Assembly (NCBI GenBank): GCA_029210545.1
Contig: JARGFV010000007.1
Span: forward strand, 1 to 45,467
Source: a bacterium
GTDB taxonomy: Bacteria; BMS3Abin14
DNA length: 45,467 nucleotides
Reading direction: 5' to 3'
The notes under the pieces were generated by a model. It did no database searches and was not told where the DNA came from. It was given only the letters and a program-made list of their open reading frames with translations. The number at the start of each line of letters is the position of its first letter. Positions within the stretch are counted from its first letter, which is position 1. Both the position numbers and the translations under genes were made by a program. Positions 9,990 to 19,552 of this stretch are shown here, in pieces.

Positions 9990-10436
9990 TCGCTCTTCGT
10001 GAGATAGATATCAAATCTCACGTCTCAGATCTCAAAACAGGGGCTTTCGCTCCCTTCACTTGCCCCCTGGCACCCCGCACTCTTCTTTTTCGTGCTCTTC
10101 CCCGCGACCCCGCCTGCCCCGAGCTTACCGGCCATGAGCTTGTCGAATGGTCGAGGGGCGTCCCCGCGCCCCGGGCCCGGATCCTTTCTCCGGGCCCGGG
10201 GCGAAAACACGGTTTCTCCGGTACCCCGACAGGGGGCCGGACAAAACCATTCGCGGATTTCGAGTTTCTTCTGGTTTTACTTCCCCAAAAAACATGGTAG
10301 ATTACGCGCGGAAGTTGGAAAATTCCGCCCGGGGGGGCAATTTGTCAATACCGGCACGTAAATACCTTCCCAACCCTTCCGGTATCTACCCGCACTGCCT
10401 CCAGGGAGCAGGATTGTCACGGGATGGAGATGGTAG
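9990..10436. other. 447-nt intergenic region with heptamers and a GC hairpin
   Basis: No credible gene is seen; the open frames here are mutually overlapping and lack recognisable content. The region contains a heptamer array at 10008-10035 (ATATCAA, ATCTCAC, GTCTCAG, ATCTCAA). It also has a very strong hairpin at 10167-10203, a perfect 15-bp stem (CGCCCCGGGCCCGGA with TCCGGGCCCGGGGCG) with a 7-nt loop. The latter could insulate the yraN group from the regulator gene. The 3' part should hold the promoter of the sigma-54 activator, but I find no convincing consensus. Confidence 0.5.
10167..10203. other. 15-bp perfect GC hairpin
   Basis: Stem 10167-10181 pairs with 10189-10203 around the loop TCCTTTC. 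All but one pair are G-C. It lacks a U-tract (AAAAC follows), so it is not a canonical terminator on the plus strand. Confidence 0.6.
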
Positions 10437-11855
10437 ATGACAGGGGTTAACGTTCTCATCGTCGACGACGAAAAGGCCATCAGGGATGGCCTGTCCCGGG
10501 TACTGGAGAGCGAGGGGTTCAACACCGAACTCAGCGACAGTGGTTACTCCGCGCTGGAAGAGCTTCAATCCAGCGATTTTCAACTCGTCATCACTGATCT
10601 GAAGATGCCCGGAATGAGCGGCATGGAGGTTTTAAACGCAATCACCATCCTCCAGCCCAATGTCCCCGTTATTCTCATCACCGGCTACTCCACCGTGGAA
10701 AACGCCGTTGAGGTTATGAAAAAAGGCGCCTTTGACTACCTGGCCAAGCCGTTCACTCCCGACCAACTCCTTGATAAAGTCCGCAAGGCCCTCGATCATC
10801 GGGCGTTCCTGTTAGAGGAGCACTCCCCCGCCCGGCACTTGAGGGAGCAGATCGGGTTCGACACCATGGTGGGCCACAGCGCAGCCCTCGAGAAGGTGTT
10901 CTGGAGGATCAACCAGGTCGCCCCCACTGACAGCACCGTGCTTATCACCGGCGAGAGCGGCACCGGCAAGGAACTGGCGGCAAGGGGCATCCACCATGTC
11001 AGCCCGCGCCGGCAAAAACCGTTCATGGCCATCGACTGCACGACCCTCGTTGAGAGCCTCCTGGAAAGCGAGCTGTTCGGTCACATCAAGGGGTCTTTCA
11101 CAGGGGCGGTCCAGACCAAGAAAGGCCTGTTCCAGGTAGCAGACGGCGGGACCTTGTTCCTCGACGAGGTTTCCAATATCAGTCCGGCCATCCAGGCCAA
11201 GCTCCTGCGCGTCATCCAGGAGATGGTGATCACTCCCATCGGAGGGACGAAAACGATCCCCATCGATATCCGCCTTATCGCCGCCACCAACATGGATCTC
11301 AAGGAGATGGTGGCCGAGGGCACCTTCCGTGAGGACCTTTACTACAGGCTCAACATCGTGCCGATCCAGATCCCGCCATTACGCGAACGTGAGGGCGACC
11401 TTACTCTCCTTGCAAGTCATTTCATGAAAAAGTACTCCGAGGAGATCGGCAAGGACATACGGGGTATGGCGCCGGGAGCCATGAACGTGCTCAAGCGCTA
11501 CCCCTTCCCGGGCAACGTCAGGGAGCTCGAAAACGTCATTGAGAGGGCGATCGTGCTTGCGAAAGGCAACCTCATCCAGGCCGGAGACCTGGAGATCCAG
11601 GCTCCCCTTTGTGAAAACGGCATCCTCGACACCGAACGCGTTCCGAAAAGCACCGAGGAGCTCAAGTACATGAAGAAAAAGCTCCGTGAAGACGCTGTCC
11701 GGCCCCTGGAACACGCCTTTCTCCTGGACGCCCTGGAACGCAACGGATGGAACGTCACCCGCGCAGCCGAGGACGTTGGGATGCTGAGGCCTAATTTCCA
11801 GGCCCTGCTGAAAAAACAGGGGATTTCGTTGAAGGACCGTGAGGCCGGCTCCTGA
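10437..11855 (+). CDS. NtrC-family sigma-54-dependent response regulator
   Basis: The 472-residue protein has three parts. The receiver domain has LIVDDEKAIRDGL, phosphoacceptor Asp54 in VITDLKMPGMSG and Lys in YLAKPF. The AAA+ domain has Walker A GESGTGKE, Walker B GTLFLDEV and arginine-finger-type FREDLYYRLNIV. A C-terminal Fis-like HTH (NGWNVTRAAEDVGMLRPNFQALLKK) follows. The sigma-54-contacting loop reads GSFTGA instead of GAFTGA. SD GGAG precedes the ATG. It converges with the di-haem histidine kinase at 11960, its likely partner. The obvious local target is the -24/-12 promoter at 19536. The pairing is inference from position, and the domain calls are firm. Confidence 0.93.
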   Translation: MTGVNVLIVDDEKAIRDGLSRVLESEGFNTELSDSGYSALEELQSSDFQLVITDLKMPGMSGMEVLNAITILQPNVPVILITGYSTVENAVEVMKKGAFDYLAKPFTPDQLLDKVRKALDHRAFLLEEHSPARHLREQIGFDTMVGHSAALEKVFWRINQVAPTDSTVLITGESGTGKELAARGIHHVSPRRQKPFMAIDCTTLVESLLESELFGHIKGSFTGAVQTKKGLFQVADGGTLFLDEVSNISPAIQAKLLRVIQEMVITPIGGTKTIPIDIRLIAATNMDLKEMVAEGTFREDLYYRLNIVPIQIPPLREREGDLTLLASHFMKKYSEEIGKDIRGMAPGAMNVLKRYPFPGNVRELENVIERAIVLAKGNLIQAGDLEIQAPLCENGILDTERVPKSTEELKYMKKKLREDAVRPLEHAFLLDALERNGWNVTRAAEDVGMLRPNFQALLKKQGISLKDREAGS

Positions 11856-11959: not shown

Positions 11960-13510
11960 TCACACCGGCAGTGTGATCGAAAATGTCGTTCCCTCATCCA
12001 CCTTGCTGTACACTTCCACCGTACCGCCGTGCCCTTCCACGATTCCGTAGGATACCGATAGCCCGAGACCTGTCCCCCGGGCTCCCTTCGTGCTGAAAAA
12101 CGGATCGAAAACCTTTACGAGATTTTCTTCCGGGATCCCGAATCCGGTGTCCTGTATTCTGACCACGACAGCGTCTCCGGTGAGATCCATCCCGGTCCAG
12201 AGGGTCAGCGTTCCCCCCTCCTCCATGGCCTGGCTGGCGTTTAAAAACATGTTGATGAACACCTGTTCCATCTGTCCCGAATCGATGAGAAGGTCCGGCA
12301 GATTATTTGCGTACTCCCGAACGATGGAGATATCGTAGAAAGAGGAGAGGTGTTCCACCAGGCCAAGGGCTCGGTCCAGGGTGTCGTTGATGCTGTTCAT
12401 GCTCTTCCTGGGCTCTGTCTTTCGGGAAAAATCCAGAAGGTTCTTGACGATCCTGGCGCAGCGGTCGGCTTCTTCGGTGATTGTGTCCAGGTCCTGTTTG
12501 AACTCCGGTACGAGCTTGACGTTCTTGTCGATGATGGAAGCGTGGATCAGGATCCCGGTTAAAGGGTTGTTGAGTTCGTGGGCGATCCCCGCGGCGAGTT
12601 CGCCCAGGGAGGCCAGCTTTTCTGAGCGGATGAGCACCGACTGCATCTCCTGGATCTGTTTTGTCCTCTCCTCTACCCGGCTTTCCAGGGTCGCCGCCCA
12701 CTGGTCCCTGTCCTCCCTGGCCTTTTTCAGGCTGCCGGTCATCTCGTTGAACGCTTCCGCAAGCTCTCCAAGTTCGTCGTTGGGAGCGTCTTTAATGATG
12801 CGCCAGTCCCCCCTGGACAGGGCACGTGTATGGTCCAGGAGGGTATTCACCGGCTGCGTGATGAGTTTGCGGGTCAGAAGGTTCAGGCACAGGGACAGGG
12901 CCACGACCAGGAACACGATCTCTATGAGGATGTTGTTCCGGTAGGCCGCCATCTGGGTCACGATGCCGGAGGTGGAGACCGTGATATCCAGGACACCCAG
13001 GAGGTTGACGTCAGACGGATGGTAGTGGCATTGAGCCTCATAGCATCCCGGTTCGTTCCGGATGGCCCTCGTAACCGCCAGGACCTCTTCCCTGTCCCGG
13101 TCGACGAACAAACGGCTTCGATCCATGGCAGGGACATCCACCTTCGTGGAGTTTCCCATGTGGCACATCCGGCAACTGGGATCCTCCTGCTTGTCGATCC
13201 GGGTGCTCACTTCCTTTTTGTCCAGGGAAAACTGGACGACCCCGTTTTTGTCGATAAGCCGGACGTTCTTGATGTTCTCCTGTTTCCCCGCCCGATTCAT
13301 GAGATGGTATGCCTCTTCGACATGGCCCCCCAGCATGGCGCTATGGGTTGTTTGAAGGATGGTCTCGGACAGGTTATCTATATCCCGGGTGTACAGCTCC
13401 ATGAACGCCCCTTTCAGGGCGGCAATGTTAAAGAGGGTGAACACGGTCATGGTGAACATCAGAACAATCGCGCTGATGATTGAGAACTTGATCATCAGAC
13501 CAAAGCGCAT
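11960..13510 (-). CDS. Di-haem periplasmic sensor histidine kinase
   Basis: The start is placed at ATG 13510 because AGGAGGGG stands 7 nt before it; this gives 516 residues. TM1 (10-32) is followed by a periplasmic domain with two haem c attachment motifs, CRMCH (113-117) and the rarer CX4CH form CYEAQCH (156-162). TM2 (193-212), HAMP (ITQPVNTLLDH onward) and a coiled coil come next. The kinase core has H-box GIAHELNNPLTGI (His311), an N-box with FLNASQAM, G1 DTGFGIPEE and G2 GTGLGLSVSYGIV. Covalent haem would let it sense redox state, oxygen, NO or CO; the ligand is unknown. It ends the ten-gene minus cluster and faces the NtrC-type regulator. Two hairpins precede it. Confidence 0.93.
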   Translation of the reverse strand: MRFGLMIKFSIISAIVLMFTMTVFTLFNIAALKGAFMELYTRDIDNLSETILQTTHSAMLGGHVEEAYHLMNRAGKQENIKNVRLIDKNGVVQFSLDKKEVSTRIDKQEDPSCRMCHMGNSTKVDVPAMDRSRLFVDRDREEVLAVTRAIRNEPGCYEAQCHYHPSDVNLLGVLDITVSTSGIVTQMAAYRNNILIEIVFLVVALSLCLNLLTRKLITQPVNTLLDHTRALSRGDWRIIKDAPNDELGELAEAFNEMTGSLKKAREDRDQWAATLESRVEERTKQIQEMQSVLIRSEKLASLGELAAGIAHELNNPLTGILIHASIIDKNVKLVPEFKQDLDTITEEADRCARIVKNLLDFSRKTEPRKSMNSINDTLDRALGLVEHLSSFYDISIVREYANNLPDLLIDSGQMEQVFINMFLNASQAMEEGGTLTLWTGMDLTGDAVVVRIQDTGFGIPEENLVKVFDPFFSTKGARGTGLGLSVSYGIVEGHGGTVEVYSKVDEGTTFSITLPV

Positions 13511-13607: not shown

Positions 13608-14138
13608 TCAGGAAGGCGAAACTCCCCTGAGTTTCGCCTTCTTCACCTTCCTCTCTTCCTTCCTGATCTGGTCTGCGCACCAGATGCGCATCTGGTAGTT
13701 CTCCAGCCCCATGATGACGAGACCCGAAACGAAAACCGCCCAGTAGGTCTCGCTGCCTGCCGCGGCATAGGAGAAAAAGATGTAAAAAGAGGCGATGTAG
13801 AAAAGGTGGGACCAGCCGTGGTAGCCACCCTGCCCCTTGGCCAGGCGCGCCAGGGTGAGGGTCAGTGCTGAAAAAACGTAAACGATGAGGGCTACACCGA
13901 TGAGTTCCAGGGGAGGAGAGGCGCCCAGAACCTCCCGGACCCTGGCCGAAAGAGGGGGAAGCAGCCGGCTGTTGGGGATGGCGAGGACAGTGATGAGGAT
14001 GAAGGCCGCAAGCCCGTACGACCCGGTCCGGGATTGGGCTCTGAGATTCCGAATCCTTCCCTCAGCCTCGAACCGCTTATCCAGGCCGGAAGGCGCCTCC
14101 TCCGACGGGGGGGAGGCGCTACCTTGTTTTTCGTCCAT
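13608..14138 (-). CDS. Four-TM membrane protein of unknown function in the respiratory/sensor cluster
   Basis: The 176-residue protein is not one I recognise. The N-terminal 40 residues are hydrophilic and cytosolic-looking. Four hydrophobic helices follow, roughly at 41-56, 77-101, 108-129 and 131-150, and the C-terminus is Lys/Arg-rich (RKEERKVKKAKLR). No cysteine-haem motif is present; a few histidines and tryptophans lie in or near the helices (GGYHGWSHLFYIASF). It lies between the kinase-less haem sensor and the haem kinase and is likely co-transcribed with both. A role as membrane partner of the sensors or of the NrfD complex is a guess. Its last nine codons form a perfect hairpin. Confidence 0.8.
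   Translation of the reverse strand: MDEKQGSASPPSEEAPSGLDKRFEAEGRIRNLRAQSRTGSYGLAAFILITVLAIPNSRLLPPLSARVREVLGASPPLELIGVALIVYVFSALTLTLARLAKGQGGYHGWSHLFYIASFYIFFSYAAAGSETYWAVFVSGLVIMGLENYQMRIWCADQIRKEERKVKKAKLRGVSPS
13615..13638 (-). other. Leader hairpin 1, overlapping the 3' end of the four-TM gene
   Basis: GGCGAAACTC (13615-13624) and GAGTTTCGCC (13629-13638) form a perfect 10-bp stem with a 4-nt loop. It is made from the codons just before the stop of the four-TM gene and is followed on the minus strand by TTCCTGATTTCC. This is an attenuator or mRNA-processing candidate before the kinase. Confidence 0.5.
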
Positions 14139-14187: not shown

Positions 14188-15048
14188 TCACGAAGGGGTC
14201 CCGCCCGACTCAGGATTCCCGTTGTCGGTGGTGCCGTCCTCGTCTCCGGGCAATTGAGCTCCCCGCCGCTCGAGGGCCATGACCTGTACCAGTTCACCCA
14301 GACGCTCGATCTCGGCGGATCCCCTGGGGATATCCACACCGATACGACCCTCACAACACTCGGAGGCGTAGTCGACCAGTCCCCTTAACGGCTGCATCAC
14401 ATTGCGCCACAGGAGAGCCGTCACGCCGCCCACCGTCAGGAATAGAATCATGACGCAAAAAATGACCAGACGCAACCTCAGCATTGCCAGGGATTTCATC
14501 AGCTTTTCCTGGGACAACCCCATATCCAGGGTTCCGAGGAGTTGCTTTTCTTCGGGATGAAAATGACACGCGGCCGAGGAACAATCAGGATCGTTGAAGA
14601 TGGGCGTCATCAGATAGAGGATCTTCTCCTTGTTTTCATTGGTATGGACAATGGCCCGGTCCATCAGGCCCAGCCTGGTAACCGGCTTCGAGCCTGTGTG
14701 GCACCGGGCGCAAAGAGGTGATCCGCGATCGGGCACGGTGCCGATCTCTTCGATGTTGCTGGAATGGAGGATCACACCTGTGCACTTGAAGATCCGGGCA
14801 TACTTCACCGGCTCCTGGGCCCCGATGTTCAGCATCATCTGGTCAATGCTGTCGTGGTCCGACTGGAGCATGGCGTACCTCATGGACCTTAGGATCGTGT
14901 CCGAGAGGGCGGCTTCGTACCGCACCGAATCTTTCATCATATCTGCCTTGACGAAGGAGTACAGCAGGATGCAGCAGACGATGGTAAACCCGGTCACCAC
15001 CATGGCCACATTAATGATCTCTTTTGTGGCAAACTGCCTGAACATCAC
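14188..15048 (-). CDS. Di-haem HAMP sensor protein lacking a kinase domain
   Basis: This 286-residue protein has TM1 (12-33) and a periplasmic domain with CARCH (113-117) and CX4CH CSSAACH followed by FHPEEKQLLGTLDM (156-162). TM2 (192-212) is followed by a HAMP-like stretch (MQPLRGLVDYASE...RLGELVQVM). It then stops after a short acidic tail. Haem motifs fall at exactly the same residue numbers as in the kinase encoded at 11960-13510, and both have the C-x-C-H-x-H-P...LLGxLD block, so the sensory halves are paralogous. Without an output domain it may heterodimerise with the kinase or report to the pseudo-receiver. It follows the NrfD gene after a strong hairpin. Confidence 0.88.
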   Translation of the reverse strand: MMFRQFATKEIINVAMVVTGFTIVCCILLYSFVKADMMKDSVRYEAALSDTILRSMRYAMLQSDHDSIDQMMLNIGAQEPVKYARIFKCTGVILHSSNIEEIGTVPDRGSPLCARCHTGSKPVTRLGLMDRAIVHTNENKEKILYLMTPIFNDPDCSSAACHFHPEEKQLLGTLDMGLSQEKLMKSLAMLRLRLVIFCVMILFLTVGGVTALLWRNVMQPLRGLVDYASECCEGRIGVDIPRGSAEIERLGELVQVMALERRGAQLPGDEDGTTDNGNPESGGTPS

Positions 15049-15127: not shown

Positions 15128-16465
15128 CTATCTCATCTCCCTGGAAACCGTTGAGGGCTGGGCCACGGCTCCATGGCTGTGAACCTTTTCGGTCGCTTTC
15201 GCATAGGCCTCCACCGGCACCTTTTTCCAGGAATACACGATGGGGAGGCGGTAAAGGATGAACCGGTAGGTCGCGATGTAAAGCCCGAACAGGGTGAAGG
15301 CGATGATCCACTCAAAAATATGGGGGATCTCCTGGTAGAGGTTCCAGTTAAAGGCGATGATGGCGGTGTTGAGTCGGTTCAGGGCGATTCCGAGCACTGC
15401 GATAAGAGCCCCGAACCGGACGATCCCGACCCGCTGGTTGCGGATGCCGTAGGCGAAGAGGACCATGGGCGCGATCACTCCAAAAAGAAGCTCGAAGGAA
15501 AACCATTGTCCCCAACCTGTGGCCAGGTATGCCCACTCGTTGTCGTGGGCGATACCGAGGAGTTTGATGGTCAGATAAGTGATGAGGGCCATGCTCGACC
15601 CCCTGGCCAACCCGATGGTGAGCCGGTCAAGGTTCTCCCTGAACGCCTCGTCGGCTCGCCAGAACATGGTCTTTTTCACGATTGAGCTCACCACGATGAC
15701 CATGCACAGCCCGCCGAAGATGGATGACACGAAGAAGAAGATCCACAGGAACTCCTGAGAGTACCACAGGGGATGGACCTTGGAGGGCGCATAGGTGAAC
15801 AGTGCTCCCAGGGCCCCCTGATGGAGAGTAGACAGGATGATACCGGCGATGGTGAGCCCGATGGTCATCTTCTTGATGAACTGCTTGGCCATTGGCCATT
15901 GAGCCCACTCGAAGAACGCCTCGGACACCTCCAGGATCTGGACGGTCAGGTAGGTGGCCACATGCCAGCCCACCAGGAACAGGACCGCCGCGGTCCCCCA
16001 GGCCACCACCATCGGGTATGGCAGGCGCCATGGCTGACCCAGGTCACAGAGGAGGTAAACCACCGCGAAAAAGTAACCCAGCAGCCCGTTTAAAAGGGCG
16101 ATGCGCAGGATGGGCTTGAAATCCTTGCGGCCGAAGAGCTCAACCGTGGTCCCCATTAGGAACCCGGATGCCGAGAGGGGCACCATGACGAAAAGCCCGA
16201 AACCGAGGAACAGCCCCCAGGGGTAATCATTGGAGGAGTGGGTGACGACTCCCAGGCCGAAGATGAACCTGTAAATGATGAGGGGGAACCCGACGGCAAA
16301 GAGCGCCCCCAGGATCCAGTTTAACGGGTTTCGGACCGCCTGGCGCAGGTACTCGCGAAGAGTCAGGCCGAGGAGCAGCTTTTCCAGGAAGCTCCAGCGG
16401 CGTCCGGAACCTTCGTCGGCCACGGAATCCACGGGACGATAACCTGTTTTCACAAGGGATTTCAT
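15128..16465 (-). CDS. NrfD/HmcC-like quinone-interacting membrane subunit
   Basis: The 445-residue integral membrane protein has about ten hydrophobic helices. Signatures of the NrfD/PsrC/HybB/DsrP superfamily are the quinone-pocket region YPWGLFLGFGLF, LCDLGQPWRLPYP and the STLHQGALGALF helix. Members exchange electrons between (mena)quinone and a periplasmic iron-sulfur protein and carry no cofactor themselves. The start is set by the SD GGAGG before ATG 16465, 2 nt after the stop of the iron-sulfur gene. With that protein and the pentahaem cytochrome it makes a three-part complex resembling the Cbc4 (CbcSTU) type of Geobacter or the O/P/J part of Dsr. The exact substrate cannot be read from sequence. 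Confidence 0.92.
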   Translation of the reverse strand: MKSLVKTGYRPVDSVADEGSGRRWSFLEKLLLGLTLREYLRQAVRNPLNWILGALFAVGFPLIIYRFIFGLGVVTHSSNDYPWGLFLGFGLFVMVPLSASGFLMGTTVELFGRKDFKPILRIALLNGLLGYFFAVVYLLCDLGQPWRLPYPMVVAWGTAAVLFLVGWHVATYLTVQILEVSEAFFEWAQWPMAKQFIKKMTIGLTIAGIILSTLHQGALGALFTYAPSKVHPLWYSQEFLWIFFFVSSIFGGLCMVIVVSSIVKKTMFWRADEAFRENLDRLTIGLARGSSMALITYLTIKLLGIAHDNEWAYLATGWGQWFSFELLFGVIAPMVLFAYGIRNQRVGIVRFGALIAVLGIALNRLNTAIIAFNWNLYQEIPHIFEWIIAFTLFGLYIATYRFILYRLPIVYSWKKVPVEAYAKATEKVHSHGAVAQPSTVSREMR

Positions 16466-16467
16466 GG

Positions 16468-17409
16468 CTATATATCCTCCCTCTTCTCGGTTGCGGGTTT
16501 CTCTTCGGCCCCCTCACCACCCCGGGTTGCCAGGCGGTGGAACCCGAGGAACAGGGCGGGCCAGATGGACAATACCATGGGAACATTGGAGAGAAAAGCC
16601 TGTGCGTTGGCCAGGATCGGTTCTTTCTGGAGGGTGGTGTCGAACCCCACCTCCTCGAAGGGAACGCCGGAAAGGTACATCCAGGACGTCCCTCCTACCT
16701 CATTTTCCCCGTAAAGGTGGCCCACGTAGCGGCCCGGGTTGACCCGGATACGCTCATAGGCAACCTTTATCAGGTTCTTCCTGTGCCCGAAGGTCAGGAC
16801 CTCCTGGGGACACGCTTCCACGCAGGCAGGCGGCCTTCCGAACTTGAGCCGGGTGTCGTAGCAGAAAATGCACTTGCGGATCACCGGGTTGAAGGCGCTG
16901 GAATAGGAGTAAGCCGGAATCCGGAAGGGGCACGCGACCATGCAGTTCCGGCACCCCACGCAGACCTTGGAGTTGTAGATCACCGCCCCCTCCTTCGTCT
17001 TCGTGTAGGCGTTGACGAAGCAGCTGGTCAGGCAGGCCGGCTCGTTACAATGGTTGCACTGGATCTTCCGGTACGCCGGCTGCCCTTCCTTGCCGGCCTC
17101 GTACCGGTTCACCACGGTAAAAGCGTTCTCGTCGGTCCTTCTCTTCTGTGTGCCCCCGTGGTGCAGCTCATCGAATACCGAGTGGTCGTCGAAGGGCACC
17201 GCGGGAGCGGGCAGTTTCTGTTCTTCGTTGCACGCGGCCTCACAGGTCCGACAGCCGATGCAGCGGGTCAGGTCCACCAGGACTCCCATTCCATCGGGGT
17301 AGCCGGTGAAGCCGGCAGCACCGATAGCTTTCCCGGACAAGGTGAACGTCCCTGCTGCCGCTCCCGCCAGGCTCACCGAAAGAAACTTTCTTCGGGTCAT
17401 CTTACTCAT
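16468..17409 (-). CDS. Tat-exported 4x[4Fe-4S] ferredoxin-like subunit
   Basis: The start is set at ATG 17409 (SD GGGAGGAAGAC), giving 313 residues that begin [16 protein letters not shown], a Tat signal with the twin arginines at 6-7. Cysteine clusters are [11 protein letters not shown] (50-60), [13 protein letters not shown] (118-130), [11 protein letters not shown] (150-160) and CIFC...ACVEAC (180-200), enough for four [4Fe-4S] centres as in HybA, DsrO and PsrB proteins. A hydrophobic stretch near the C-terminus ([15 protein letters not shown]) may anchor it to the periplasmic face next to NrfD. It would pass electrons between the NrfD quinone site and the pentahaem cytochrome. Confidence 0.93.
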
Positions 17410-17478
17410 GTCTTCCTCCCTCATATATCTGGCGTTTCACTGACAAGGTTCCGCTCCCCCTGAATCATCCTCAAGGAC

Positions 17479-18003
17479 TCAGTGAGCGGAGCTGGTACCT
17501 TCACCAGATGGCGCATATTTTCCCGAGTGGTAAAAAGCGTCTCCGGCCTCGGTCCTCTCGTGGCAATCCTCACATCCGACAGGACCGCCCATTTCGTTGT
17601 GACAGTTGAGACAGTTGAGGTGGTAAGCGGCTTTCAATCCCGGCTTGTCGATGTGGTAGACGCTGGGGTCCGTCTCCTTGGCAGTAACGGCCTCGGCGGA
17701 GAAGGGGTCGACAGCGTGGCATGTCTGGCACGTCTGGGCCTCCAGGGTGTCCTCGGGGCCGTGACACCGCGCGCACTTCTCGTTGGTTGTGGGAACACCC
17801 GCGGCATGGTGGTGGCATTCGGTACAGTCGGCCGCGATATCAAGGTGCATATCGTGGTCGAACTCGGCTCCCCCATAAAGGTGAGCCAGGTTATCAAGGG
17901 TCACTGTCTCCGGCAGCTTGAGAGTATCTCCCTGGCCGCTTAAGGGGAGACAGATCACCATCAGCACCATCACCGAGCCGGCAATCCAATTGAACGGTTT
18001 CAT
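17479..18003 (-). CDS. Pentahaem periplasmic cytochrome c
   Basis: The start is at ATG 18003, directed by AGGAGGAAGATC; the upstream open frame is not translated in my view. The protein has 174 residues with a signal peptide (1-24) and five CXXCH haem sites at residues 60, 77, 92, 131 and 144. Surrounding histidines (for example FDHDMHLDIAADCTECHHH) are of cytochrome c3/c7 type and imply bis-His ligation. It would be the periplasmic electron carrier or terminus of the adjoining iron-sulfur/NrfD complex. Its haem is presumably attached by a System II machinery that includes the CcsA-type protein at 1580. Confidence 0.92.
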   Translation of the reverse strand: MKPFNWIAGSVMVLMVICLPLSGQGDTLKLPETVTLDNLAHLYGGAEFDHDMHLDIAADCTECHHHAAGVPTTNEKCARCHGPEDTLEAQTCQTCHAVDPFSAEAVTAKETDPSVYHIDKPGLKAAYHLNCLNCHNEMGGPVGCEDCHERTEAGDAFYHSGKYAPSGEGTSSAH

Positions 18004-18410: not shown

Positions 18411-18671
18411 TTACTCGATGATCTCCCGGCCCGTATCGGTAACCGCGACCTTTTTTCTGGCGGTGACCTTTTTCGCGAAAGCCGAGATCGTGCCCATCAT
18501 CAGGATCAGGGCCGGAACCATTTGGGCCACGATGATGAGGGCGACGACACCCAGGAACAGCAGGACCATGATCCCGCTCTGGTAGGTCTGGGTCGTGTCC
18601 ACGGCCCATGCGTACCCCGCTGTGGACAGAACGACCGCCGTCATGTTCAGCAAAGCTCTCAGCGTTTTCAT
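18411..18671 (-). CDS. Small membrane protein with QxVPAL motif, paralogue 2
   Basis: The 86-residue protein starts behind a strong SD (AAGGAGGATGTC). It has a signal-peptide-like N-terminus (to about 23, GYAWA), a short linker (VDTTQTYQSG), one long hydrophobic helix MVLLFLGVVALIIVAQMVPALILMM and a basic tail (FAKKVTARKK). The helix aligns with that of the 91-residue protein at 19187-19462: LLFL...GVV...Q-x-VPAL-x-L with a following S-x-F. So the two are paralogues on either side of the receiver-like gene. The function is unknown to me. Their position at the head of the cluster suggests a membrane signalling or scaffold role. Confidence 0.8.
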   Translation of the reverse strand: MKTLRALLNMTAVVLSTAGYAWAVDTTQTYQSGIMVLLFLGVVALIIVAQMVPALILMMGTISAFAKKVTARKKVAVTDTGREIIE

Positions 18672-18698: not shown

Positions 18699-19115
18699 TC
18701 AGGAATGTCCCTTGGCCGCGGCACCAACCGGCCCTGATAGCCCGGTGATGTTGGCGAAAGCACACCTGACAGCCTGGAGCAGTTCGTCCCTGTCCTCCTC
18801 CCGTGCCGGCTTGAGGGCATGGTAAAAGATCCCCTCGCGCCTGAGCTTTCGAAGGAGGGGCAGGGATTCCTCGTTGGACACGAGGATTATAGTGAGGTTT
18901 TTGTTGCACTTTTTCAGGATCGGAATGAGGTCGCCCGCCGGCATGTTGTCGAACACGTTTCCCAGCAGTACGACCGGGGCTTCCTTCCTGAGGACATCCT
19001 TCAAGACCAGGTCCACCGAATCGGGAGCAACGATCTGGTAATCCTTGTCTCCGAAAACCTTCATGACATGATCCCTGGTCCTGGGATCCTCGTCAGCGAT
19101 TATCAGCAGTCTCAT
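18699..19115 (-). CDS. Receiver-like protein lacking the phosphoacceptor aspartate
   Basis: The start is at ATG 19115 (MRLLIIADEDPRTRD) after GGGAGAAGAGG, giving 138 residues. The fold elements of a CheY-like receiver are all there: beta-1 LLIIADED with an acidic pocket, beta-4 TIILVSNEE with the Thr/Ser position, and the conserved Lys in HALKP (102). At the phosphorylation site, however, beta-3 reads APVVLLGNVFDNMP: glycine replaces the usual aspartate, and the nearest Asp is four residues on. It is therefore probably a pseudo-receiver that cannot be phosphorylated normally. It sits between the two QxVPAL membrane-protein genes and may bind one of them or the kinase. Confidence 0.85.
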   Translation of the reverse strand: MRLLIIADEDPRTRDHVMKVFGDKDYQIVAPDSVDLVLKDVLRKEAPVVLLGNVFDNMPAGDLIPILKKCNKNLTIILVSNEESLPLLRKLRREGIFYHALKPAREEDRDELLQAVRCAFANITGLSGPVGAAAKGHS

Positions 19116-19186: not shown

Positions 19187-19462
19187 TTAGACCTGCTCAC
19201 TGCCGGCAGCATCGACCTTATGGCTGCTCCGCTTGAATACCGAAACAAGAAGGGAGCTGAACAGAACCAGCGCTGGTACCAGCTGGAGCAGAACGACAAC
19301 CCCCAGGAAGGCCAGGAAAAGCAGGAGCATGGGGCTCATCCCGCCCGAACCAGGCGCGCCGGCGCTATCGGCATTGGCCAGCGTCGCGGTAAGGAGAACC
19401 GGGCAGATCATCGCCGAAACCCGCCTCCTCAGGACCATCAGCCTTTCCACATTCCTTTTCAT
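19187..19462 (-). CDS. Small membrane protein with QxVPAL motif, paralogue 1; first gene of the cluster
   Basis: The 91-residue protein starts at ATG 19462 behind AGGAGGTAAAGGTC. The N-terminus is basic and hydrophobic (signal-like, cut perhaps after LANA). A Ser/Gly/Pro linker comes next, then one long helix MLLLFLAFLGVVVLLQLVPALVLF and a basic tail (SVFKRSSHK). It is paralogous to the protein at 18411-18671. It is the first gene after the sigma-54 promoter, with a 5' leader of roughly 60 nt. No known family is recognised. Confidence 0.8.
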   Translation of the reverse strand: MKRNVERLMVLRRRVSAMICPVLLTATLANADSAGAPGSGGMSPMLLLFLAFLGVVVLLQLVPALVLFSSLLVSVFKRSSHKVDAAGSEQV

Positions 19463-19535: not shown

Positions 19536-19552
19536 GGCATCAAACGTGCCAA
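19536..19552 (-). promoter_or_regulatory. Sigma-54 (-24/-12) promoter of the haem-sensor/respiratory cluster
   Basis: Read on the minus strand, the site is TTGGCACGTTTGATGCC. It matches the -24 block TTGGCACG fully, has the obligatory GG-N10-GC spacing and matches TGC of the -12 block. Transcription would begin near 19525, about 60 nt before the first start codon at 19462. A sigma-54 activator gene lies at the far end of the same locus. Confidence 0.8.

Follow-up and report, generated by a model that had tools for sequence, protein, structure and literature searches.

The protein encoded at positions 14188..15045 of the window (the whole 45,467-nucleotide stretch of contig JARGFV010000007.1) is a kinase-less relative, here called the twin, of the sensor half of a di-haem histidine kinase encoded nearby. 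On balance, we favor the explanation that the twin is a CbcD-type redox subunit of a respiratory complex, made from a recruited sensor half. This reading is based on the homology, motifs and predicted fold of the twin, its gene order and clade, and its patterns of co-occurrence and conservation. The relevant features of the window are listed here.

10437..11855, plus strand: sigma-54-dependent response regulator of the AtoC/NtrC type, the likely partner of the di-haem kinase
11960..13510, minus strand: di-haem histidine kinase with the twin layout plus HAMP, HisKA and HATPase; counterpart of GSU0599 by position and motifs
13608..14138, minus strand: 4-TM protein of 176 aa, CbcE-like by position, without a Pfam family
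14188..15045, minus strand: twin, CbcD-like, TM1-periplasm-TM2-HAMP layout with CXXCH and CX4CH
15128..16465, minus strand: HmcC/NrfD-type integral membrane subunit (NF045714, 368 bits, below the cut-off of 550)
16468..17424, minus strand: HmcB-type iron-sulfur subunit (NF045715, 382 bits, below the cut-off of 420)
17479..18003, minus strand: multihaem cytochrome c, weakly TmcA/HmcA-like, with five CXXCH motifs counted by eye
18411..18671, minus strand: small single-TM protein of 86 aa, with similar small proteins in relatives
18699..19115, minus strand: pseudo-receiver, a stand-alone receiver without the phospho-acceptor Asp
19187..19462, minus strand: small 91-aa single-TM protein, with whose gene the presumed operon starts
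19536..19551, minus strand: sigma-54-like promoter candidate upstream of the first gene, matching the consensus at 9 of 10 scored positions

The genes for the twin and the di-haem kinase are both on the minus strand. Translation of the twin could begin at GTG 15048 (286 aa) or ATG 15045 (285 aa); the ATG is the more likely start because nine aligned family relatives begin at the same Met. In the 285-aa numbering, TM1 (approximately residues 11–33) is followed by an sCache-type periplasmic domain, TM2 (approximately 190–213), a degenerate HAMP region (214–258) and a variable tail, with CXXCH at 112–116 and CX4CH at 155–161. A previous interpretation made without database searches (the sequence-only reading) had proposed that twin and kinase share a TM-periplasm-TM-HAMP layout, with CXXCH at residues 113–117 and CX4CH at 156–162 in both proteins. 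This was borne out, with a degenerate HAMP in the twin: BLASTP aligns 251 aa of the two proteins at 29% identity (E 5e-29 in this single comparison), and the motifs do occupy the same positions if the 286-residue count is used. Shuffling the twin sequence 20,000 times produced CXXCH in 118 cases, CX4CH in 122 and both together in six.

Relatives were compared as a set of 44 twins, comprising 39 of the 53 twin rows found plus five others, including the window twin. The 14 rows left out were three same-contig copies (L056, L084 and L104), one interrupted frame (L063) and ten presumed close relatives whose similarity was assumed (L107, L110, L111, L113, L117, L119, L122, L125, L126 and L131); L074 was counted as a twin, though labelled HK by score. 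The L063 frame (10001-10846, from one metagenome bin) is broken at the first Cys position of CX4CH, which may be either a sequencing error or a genuine loss. CX4CH is present in 44/44 twins and CXXCH in 37/44. The seven that lost the first haem motif and kept CX4CH belong to the Desulfuromusa/Malonomonas group; at three of their loci (L071, L073 and L074) the kinase was also read, and it keeps both motifs. Both motifs are found in 33 of 34 kinases, the exception being a paralogue from the window's own genome. This third homologue (L003/L054, contig C24), a kinase of 509 aa, has one CXXCH but lacks CX4CH, and there is an NtrC-type regulator near it.

Pfam searches found neither HisKA nor HATPase_c in the twin, and the gene directly after it on the strand encodes the 4-TM protein, not a kinase domain. 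We call the twin HAMP degenerate because the window twin has no Pfam HAMP match at E≤0.1 and only 16 of 44 twins have one at E≤0.01; HAMP was found in 10/10 kinases. A profile of the 44 twin rows matched HAMP structures weakly, and one twin copy (L135, in genome G319) is only 224 aa long and ends after TM2, with HAMP absent. Second, short copies of the twin occur in six genomes (G319, G411, G460, G472, G485 and G486; open frames of 228–257 aa), and in all six the match stops before HAMP. No CbcE-like gene was found alongside the three short copies that were read in context (L135, L152 and L153).

The kinase-less form is widespread. It was found at E below 1e-70 in 10 of the 12 genomes of the window's family, the one family by which its phylum was sampled, and is present in all seven that are ≥90% complete and ≤5% contaminated; the exceptions are G002 (73% complete), which has the kinase form only, and G010 (71%), which has neither. 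Twins are also present in 108/141 genomes of the order of G319, taken as Geobacter-like, and in named members of the Desulfuromonadales, Desulfuromusa kysingii and Malonomonas rubra among them. In a sensor-half tree of the 44 twins and 34 kinases chosen from those available, a branch supported at 100/100 sets all twins apart, and their clade spans the window's phylum and Desulfuromonadales. Candidatus Tharpella aukensis, of the phylum Candidatus Tharpellota, has a twin (L059) that groups inside the family's twins, which makes it very likely that the window comes from this phylum too; L065 is placed among the window's relatives. The midpoint root was used for drawing only and gives no direction of descent; it is the wider spread of the kinase form that suggests the twin derived from a kinase-type sensor half. 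These distributions and the separate clades indicate that the twin is an old, conserved protein and not a damaged or truncated kinase. The suggestion that a sequencing error after 14188 hides a kinase domain is excluded by the kinase-less orthologues. The sequence-only reading had also held that one copy simply lost, or never had, an output domain; the twin does indeed have none, but the phylogeny of the two sensor halves gives no support to its being a copy of this kinase with the output lost.

In an AlphaFold model built from the 44 twins (mean pLDDT 84.4, pTM 0.65), TM1 is a long helix that leads into a mixed alpha/beta domain whose loops carry the haem motifs; TM2 and one more helix follow. 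Comparison of the model with WalK sCache structures (Foldseek, VIA-align) gave Z 13.4 over 137 residues at 2.3 A, and the predicted sCache fold has a haem motif ahead of its last strand. By sequence, the twin is matched best in the PDB by two haem sensor domains, from GSU0582 (E 2.3e-4) and GSU0935 (E 6.5e-4). These class-40H chemoreceptor haem sensors (PDB: 3b42, 3b47; PF21563) and the sCache_heme family have the fold modeled for the twin, but they carry one haem motif rather than two, with CXXCH in place of CX4CH, and their chemotaxis output is absent from the twin. PF21563 was detected at E≤0.01 in 40/44 twins, the window twin not among them. The single CXXCH of the GSU0582 and GSU0935 domains aligns with the twin CX4CH; haem 2 would therefore be the common haem and haem 1 the extra one. 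Met59 is conserved in 44/44 twins and 22/22 kinases and aligns at a Met-Met pair in the GSU0582 and GSU0935 structures. Met60 is a distal haem ligand in GSU0935 (PMC8396549), and Met59 is probably the second ligand of haem 2. Likely redox-related roles have been described for stand-alone haem Cache domains (PMC12889525).

Genes along the minus strand of the window come in the order small TM protein, pseudo-receiver, small TM protein, five-CXXCH cytochrome, HmcB, HmcC, twin, 4-TM protein and kinase, and the sigma-54 regulator gene faces the kinase. Relatives have much the same gene order, with the kinase and regulator on either side and in either direction. A CbcE-like gene follows the twin on the same strand in 9/9 family loci and 20/20 named loci, six of the latter sitting on the same contigs as family loci. 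A redox gene lies ahead of the twin in 9/9 family loci and in 18/20 named loci; L066 has no preceding redox gene, and in L067 the contig begins too near. The preceding core is HmcC-type in seven of the nine family loci and a b-type cytochrome in the other two (L036/L055 and L038/L057). A core of multihaem c and b-type cytochromes was seen in L055, L057, L064, L134, L151 and L154 (L064 and L154 being one contig), with a dodecahaem cytochrome in 4/6 of them, and L150 has both kinds of core. The core varies (Hmc/CbcSTU-like or CbcA-CbcB, with or without the dodecahaem cytochrome), whereas the twin and CbcE-like protein are constant. Twins with no recognized adjoining redox core also occur (L066, L135 and L146). 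In L145 (6231-8090, genome G444), a 619-aa protein with nine CXXCH motifs and membrane helices is encoded upstream of the pair and is possibly a third kind of core.

The CbcE-like protein has no Pfam family; its model, four long helices with a pLDDT of 88.5, gave no Foldseek match at E≤0.001. It has one invariant His, H111. In the pseudo-receiver, the acceptor Asp is replaced in 23/23 aligned copies (Gly in 21, Ser in two), and the protein is kept across both bacterial groups despite this loss. The two small single-TM proteins encoded at 18411-18671 and 19187-19462 flank it; both have similar counterparts in relatives, and L151 has three matches to these.

The position of the twin between a redox core and a CbcE-like gene is that of CbcD in Geobacter. 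We take GSU0591 to be CbcD, and GSU0598 is presumably BccR, the sigma-54 regulator paired with the GSU0599 kinase; Joshi et al. reportedly studied CbcBA in 2021. Cbc5 is described as the c cytochromes CbcA, CbcC and CbcD, the b-type CbcB and the membrane protein CbcE (PMC11434368). In the cbcEDCBA cluster, CbcD (Gmet_2931) lies beside a c/b-cytochrome core and next to CbcE, as the twin does, although the window core is HmcB/HmcC (CbcSTU-like) and the Geobacter Cbc5 core is CbcBA. At loci with the Cbc5-type order (L134, L151 and L154), the twin occupies the position of CbcD, and genes for a di-haem kinase and a sigma-54 regulator lie close by. Among twelve haem signal transducers of G. sulfurreducens, the two-motif (CX2-4CH) proteins are GSU0591 and GSU0599, annotated as a cytochrome c family protein and a two-component protein, respectively (PMC8396549). 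The window twin likewise has two CX2-4CH motifs. It shares its sensor-half layout, both haem motifs and its gene neighborhood with the GSU0599-type kinase, but lacks HisKA and HATPase and has a poorly conserved HAMP. By gene order and haem counts, which fit cbcEDCBA, the twin resembles CbcD (GSU0591) and the kinase resembles GSU0599. Published tables for G. metallireducens describe cbcD as a monohaem periplasmic cytochrome (PMC10470525, PMC10989804), with mention of neither a CX4CH haem nor a sensor-like layout, both of which the twin has; if CbcD resembles these twins, its CX4CH haem has gone unnoticed. GSU0591 is among detected proteins (PMC7894505, PMC8691401). In G. metallireducens, all of cbcA-cbcE are higher in DIET-grown than Fe(III)-grown cells, with cbcC, D and E rising 2 to 3 fold, cbcA 29 fold and cbcB 42 fold (PMC10470525); given these unequal rises, the Cbc genes may not form one unit. 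No experiment placing CbcD in a complex was found in the portions of the Cbc literature searched. In the searched literature, with subscription journals mostly outside its scope, no paper linked CbcD to the kinase.

Constraint on the twin has shifted relative to the kinase, with the TM helices the most conserved part and HAMP the least. In 15 loci with both genes, mean pairwise identities for the twin are 61% in TM1, 42% in the periplasmic domain, 69% in TM2 and 32% in HAMP; the kinase values are 45%, 41%, 44% and 53%, respectively. In the nine of these loci that come from the window's own phylum, TM1/TM2 identities are about equal (63/72% for the twin, 62/65% for the kinase), and the contrast lies in HAMP, at 41% for the twin versus 68% for the kinase.

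Co-occurrence was tallied across the 141 genomes of the Geobacter-like order, using best E values below 1e-70 for the twin, ≤1e-60 for the kinase and below approximately 1e-45 for the CbcE-like protein, and counting genomes without a listed match as absent. Twin and kinase occur together in 101 genomes, the twin only in seven, the kinase only in five and neither in 28 (phi 0.77); for the twin and a strong CbcE-like match, the corresponding numbers are 104, four, two and 31 (phi 0.88). Because the genomes share ancestry, these figures are descriptive and not tests; that the first value is little below the second counts against the CbcD-type reading, as do the kinase-type layout retained by the twin and the HAMP still found in some copies. 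Five of the seven twin-only genomes (G395, G444, G446, G449 and G511) have no second match of any kind at E≤1e-15, and two of these, G444 and G449, are 100% complete and have the twin and CbcE-like gene with the kinase match absent. G393 was counted as kinase-less, but its five matches at E≤1e-15 may include a more distant kinase. Four of the 106 kinase genomes have frames under 420 aa (G400, G435, G440 and G485), and G435, one of the five kinase-only genomes, contains a twin fragment.

Of the 374 genomes searched beyond the window's family, 34 gave a match at E≤1e-20, and the only clear full-length kinase-less form was in G319; a match in G017 runs into the contig end and was not scored as such. 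Elsewhere the kinase thus functions with no twin present. In 10 of 12 kinase loci read outside the family, HmcB- and HmcC-type genes are close to the kinase, often with an NtrC-type regulator (the exceptions are L048 and L051, and L053 is weak), so the di-haem kinase commonly adjoins NrfD-type quinone modules, twin or not. A sigma-54-like site near the operon start scored at or under the 5% shuffle level in 16/25 loci and not in the other nine, using 200 shuffles per locus that preserved base composition alone. The loci are related, several gene starts were BLAST match starts, and the 16 include L064 and L154, which are one contig with the site past the assumed start. Window-wide, the sigma-54 pattern was not enriched (19 found versus 17.1 expected). 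The candidate promoter sites agree with possible control of the operon by the kinase and its regulator.

Several other explanations for the twin were weighed. One is that the operon-made twin is a haem-dependent regulator, forming mixed dimers with the kinase or competing for its signal, with negative feedback or redox-gated tuning of the kinase as the result. The homologous sensor halves with the same two motifs, the kinase-grade match in 101/108 twin genomes, the HAMP recognizable in some twins and a promoter-like site that beats 95% of shuffles at most operon starts would all fit this. However, the twin conserves HAMP far more poorly than the kinase does, some twins lack it altogether (L135) or lack haem 1 (7/44), the two groups have long been separated, in 7/108 twin genomes no match reaches kinase grade at E≤1e-60, and the kinase form is mostly twinless outside the family. 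We regard such a regulator as rather unlikely, though it is the main rival to the favored reading. The mixed dimers or haem brake of the sequence-only reading are weakened by the state of HAMP, the loss of haem 1 and the kinase-less genomes, and keep the co-occurrence in their favor. A narrower proposal, that the complex carries a sensor-half relative of its own kinase and that TM/HAMP contacts let the redox occupancy of the enzyme gate transcription, seems to us unlikely.

Still more doubtful is a stand-alone redox receptor that acts independently of the kinase and core and whose output would be the CbcE-like protein or the pseudo-receiver. The twin/CbcE-like pair does persist when the core is swapped or not seen nearby (L066 and L146), and the pseudo-receiver shares the operon in many loci. 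Yet the pair adjoins a redox core in most loci read, and the CbcE-like protein has no recognizable output domain. Signaling through the pseudo-receiver had been suggested earlier; the protein is real and in the same operon, but nothing further ties it to the twin. Finally, a recent truncated duplicate of the neighboring kinase, drifting to loss, is scarcely credible: the degenerate HAMP of the window twin would suit it, but the gene is kept in 10/12 family and 108/141 other-order genomes, forms a single group in the tree and encodes TM helices that are 61 to 69% identical. This candidate was already refuted by the distribution of the twin, and the tree rules out a recent duplication of the window kinase.

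For the favored CbcD-type reading, we infer haem attachment, ligands, contacts, electron transfer and regulation as follows. An inner-membrane menaquinol:cytochrome c oxidoreductase module would, long ago, have taken in a di-haem sCache-fold sensor half. The conserved TM helices of this sensor half would pack against the CbcE-like 4-TM protein and the NrfD/HmcC-type core, and its periplasmic haems may either exchange electrons with the core on one side and periplasmic cytochromes on the other or determine the redox response of the complex. Haem 2 (CX4CH) would be the one common to other haem sensors, with haem 1 an accessory. That redox pool is probably also what the kinase and sigma-54 regulator respond to when they turn the operon on, so that the twin is probably induced by the kinase and not a driver of it.

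The kind of protein is not new, since the GSU0591/GSU0599 pair is already listed from Geobacter as two-haem proteins. What is added here is a view of CbcD drawn from homology, the finding that it pairs steadily with CbcE whichever core is present, and its occurrence in a second phylum, there with an Hmc-type core. CbcD would be recast from an anonymous monohaem cytochrome to a likely di-haem sensor half homologous to the adjoining kinase, and CbcD and CbcE would be a steady pair across two redox cores and two bacterial groups. This bears on the way in which Geobacter-type bacteria select one inner-membrane quinol oxidase or another as the redox potential differs; CbcBA is used when energy is very scarce (PMC12307469). 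If the TM/HAMP contacts considered above do exist, the kinase would read the complex directly, with no diffusible signal, and the twin, constant across two swapped cores, would be a general adaptor from quinol oxidases to di-haem kinases.
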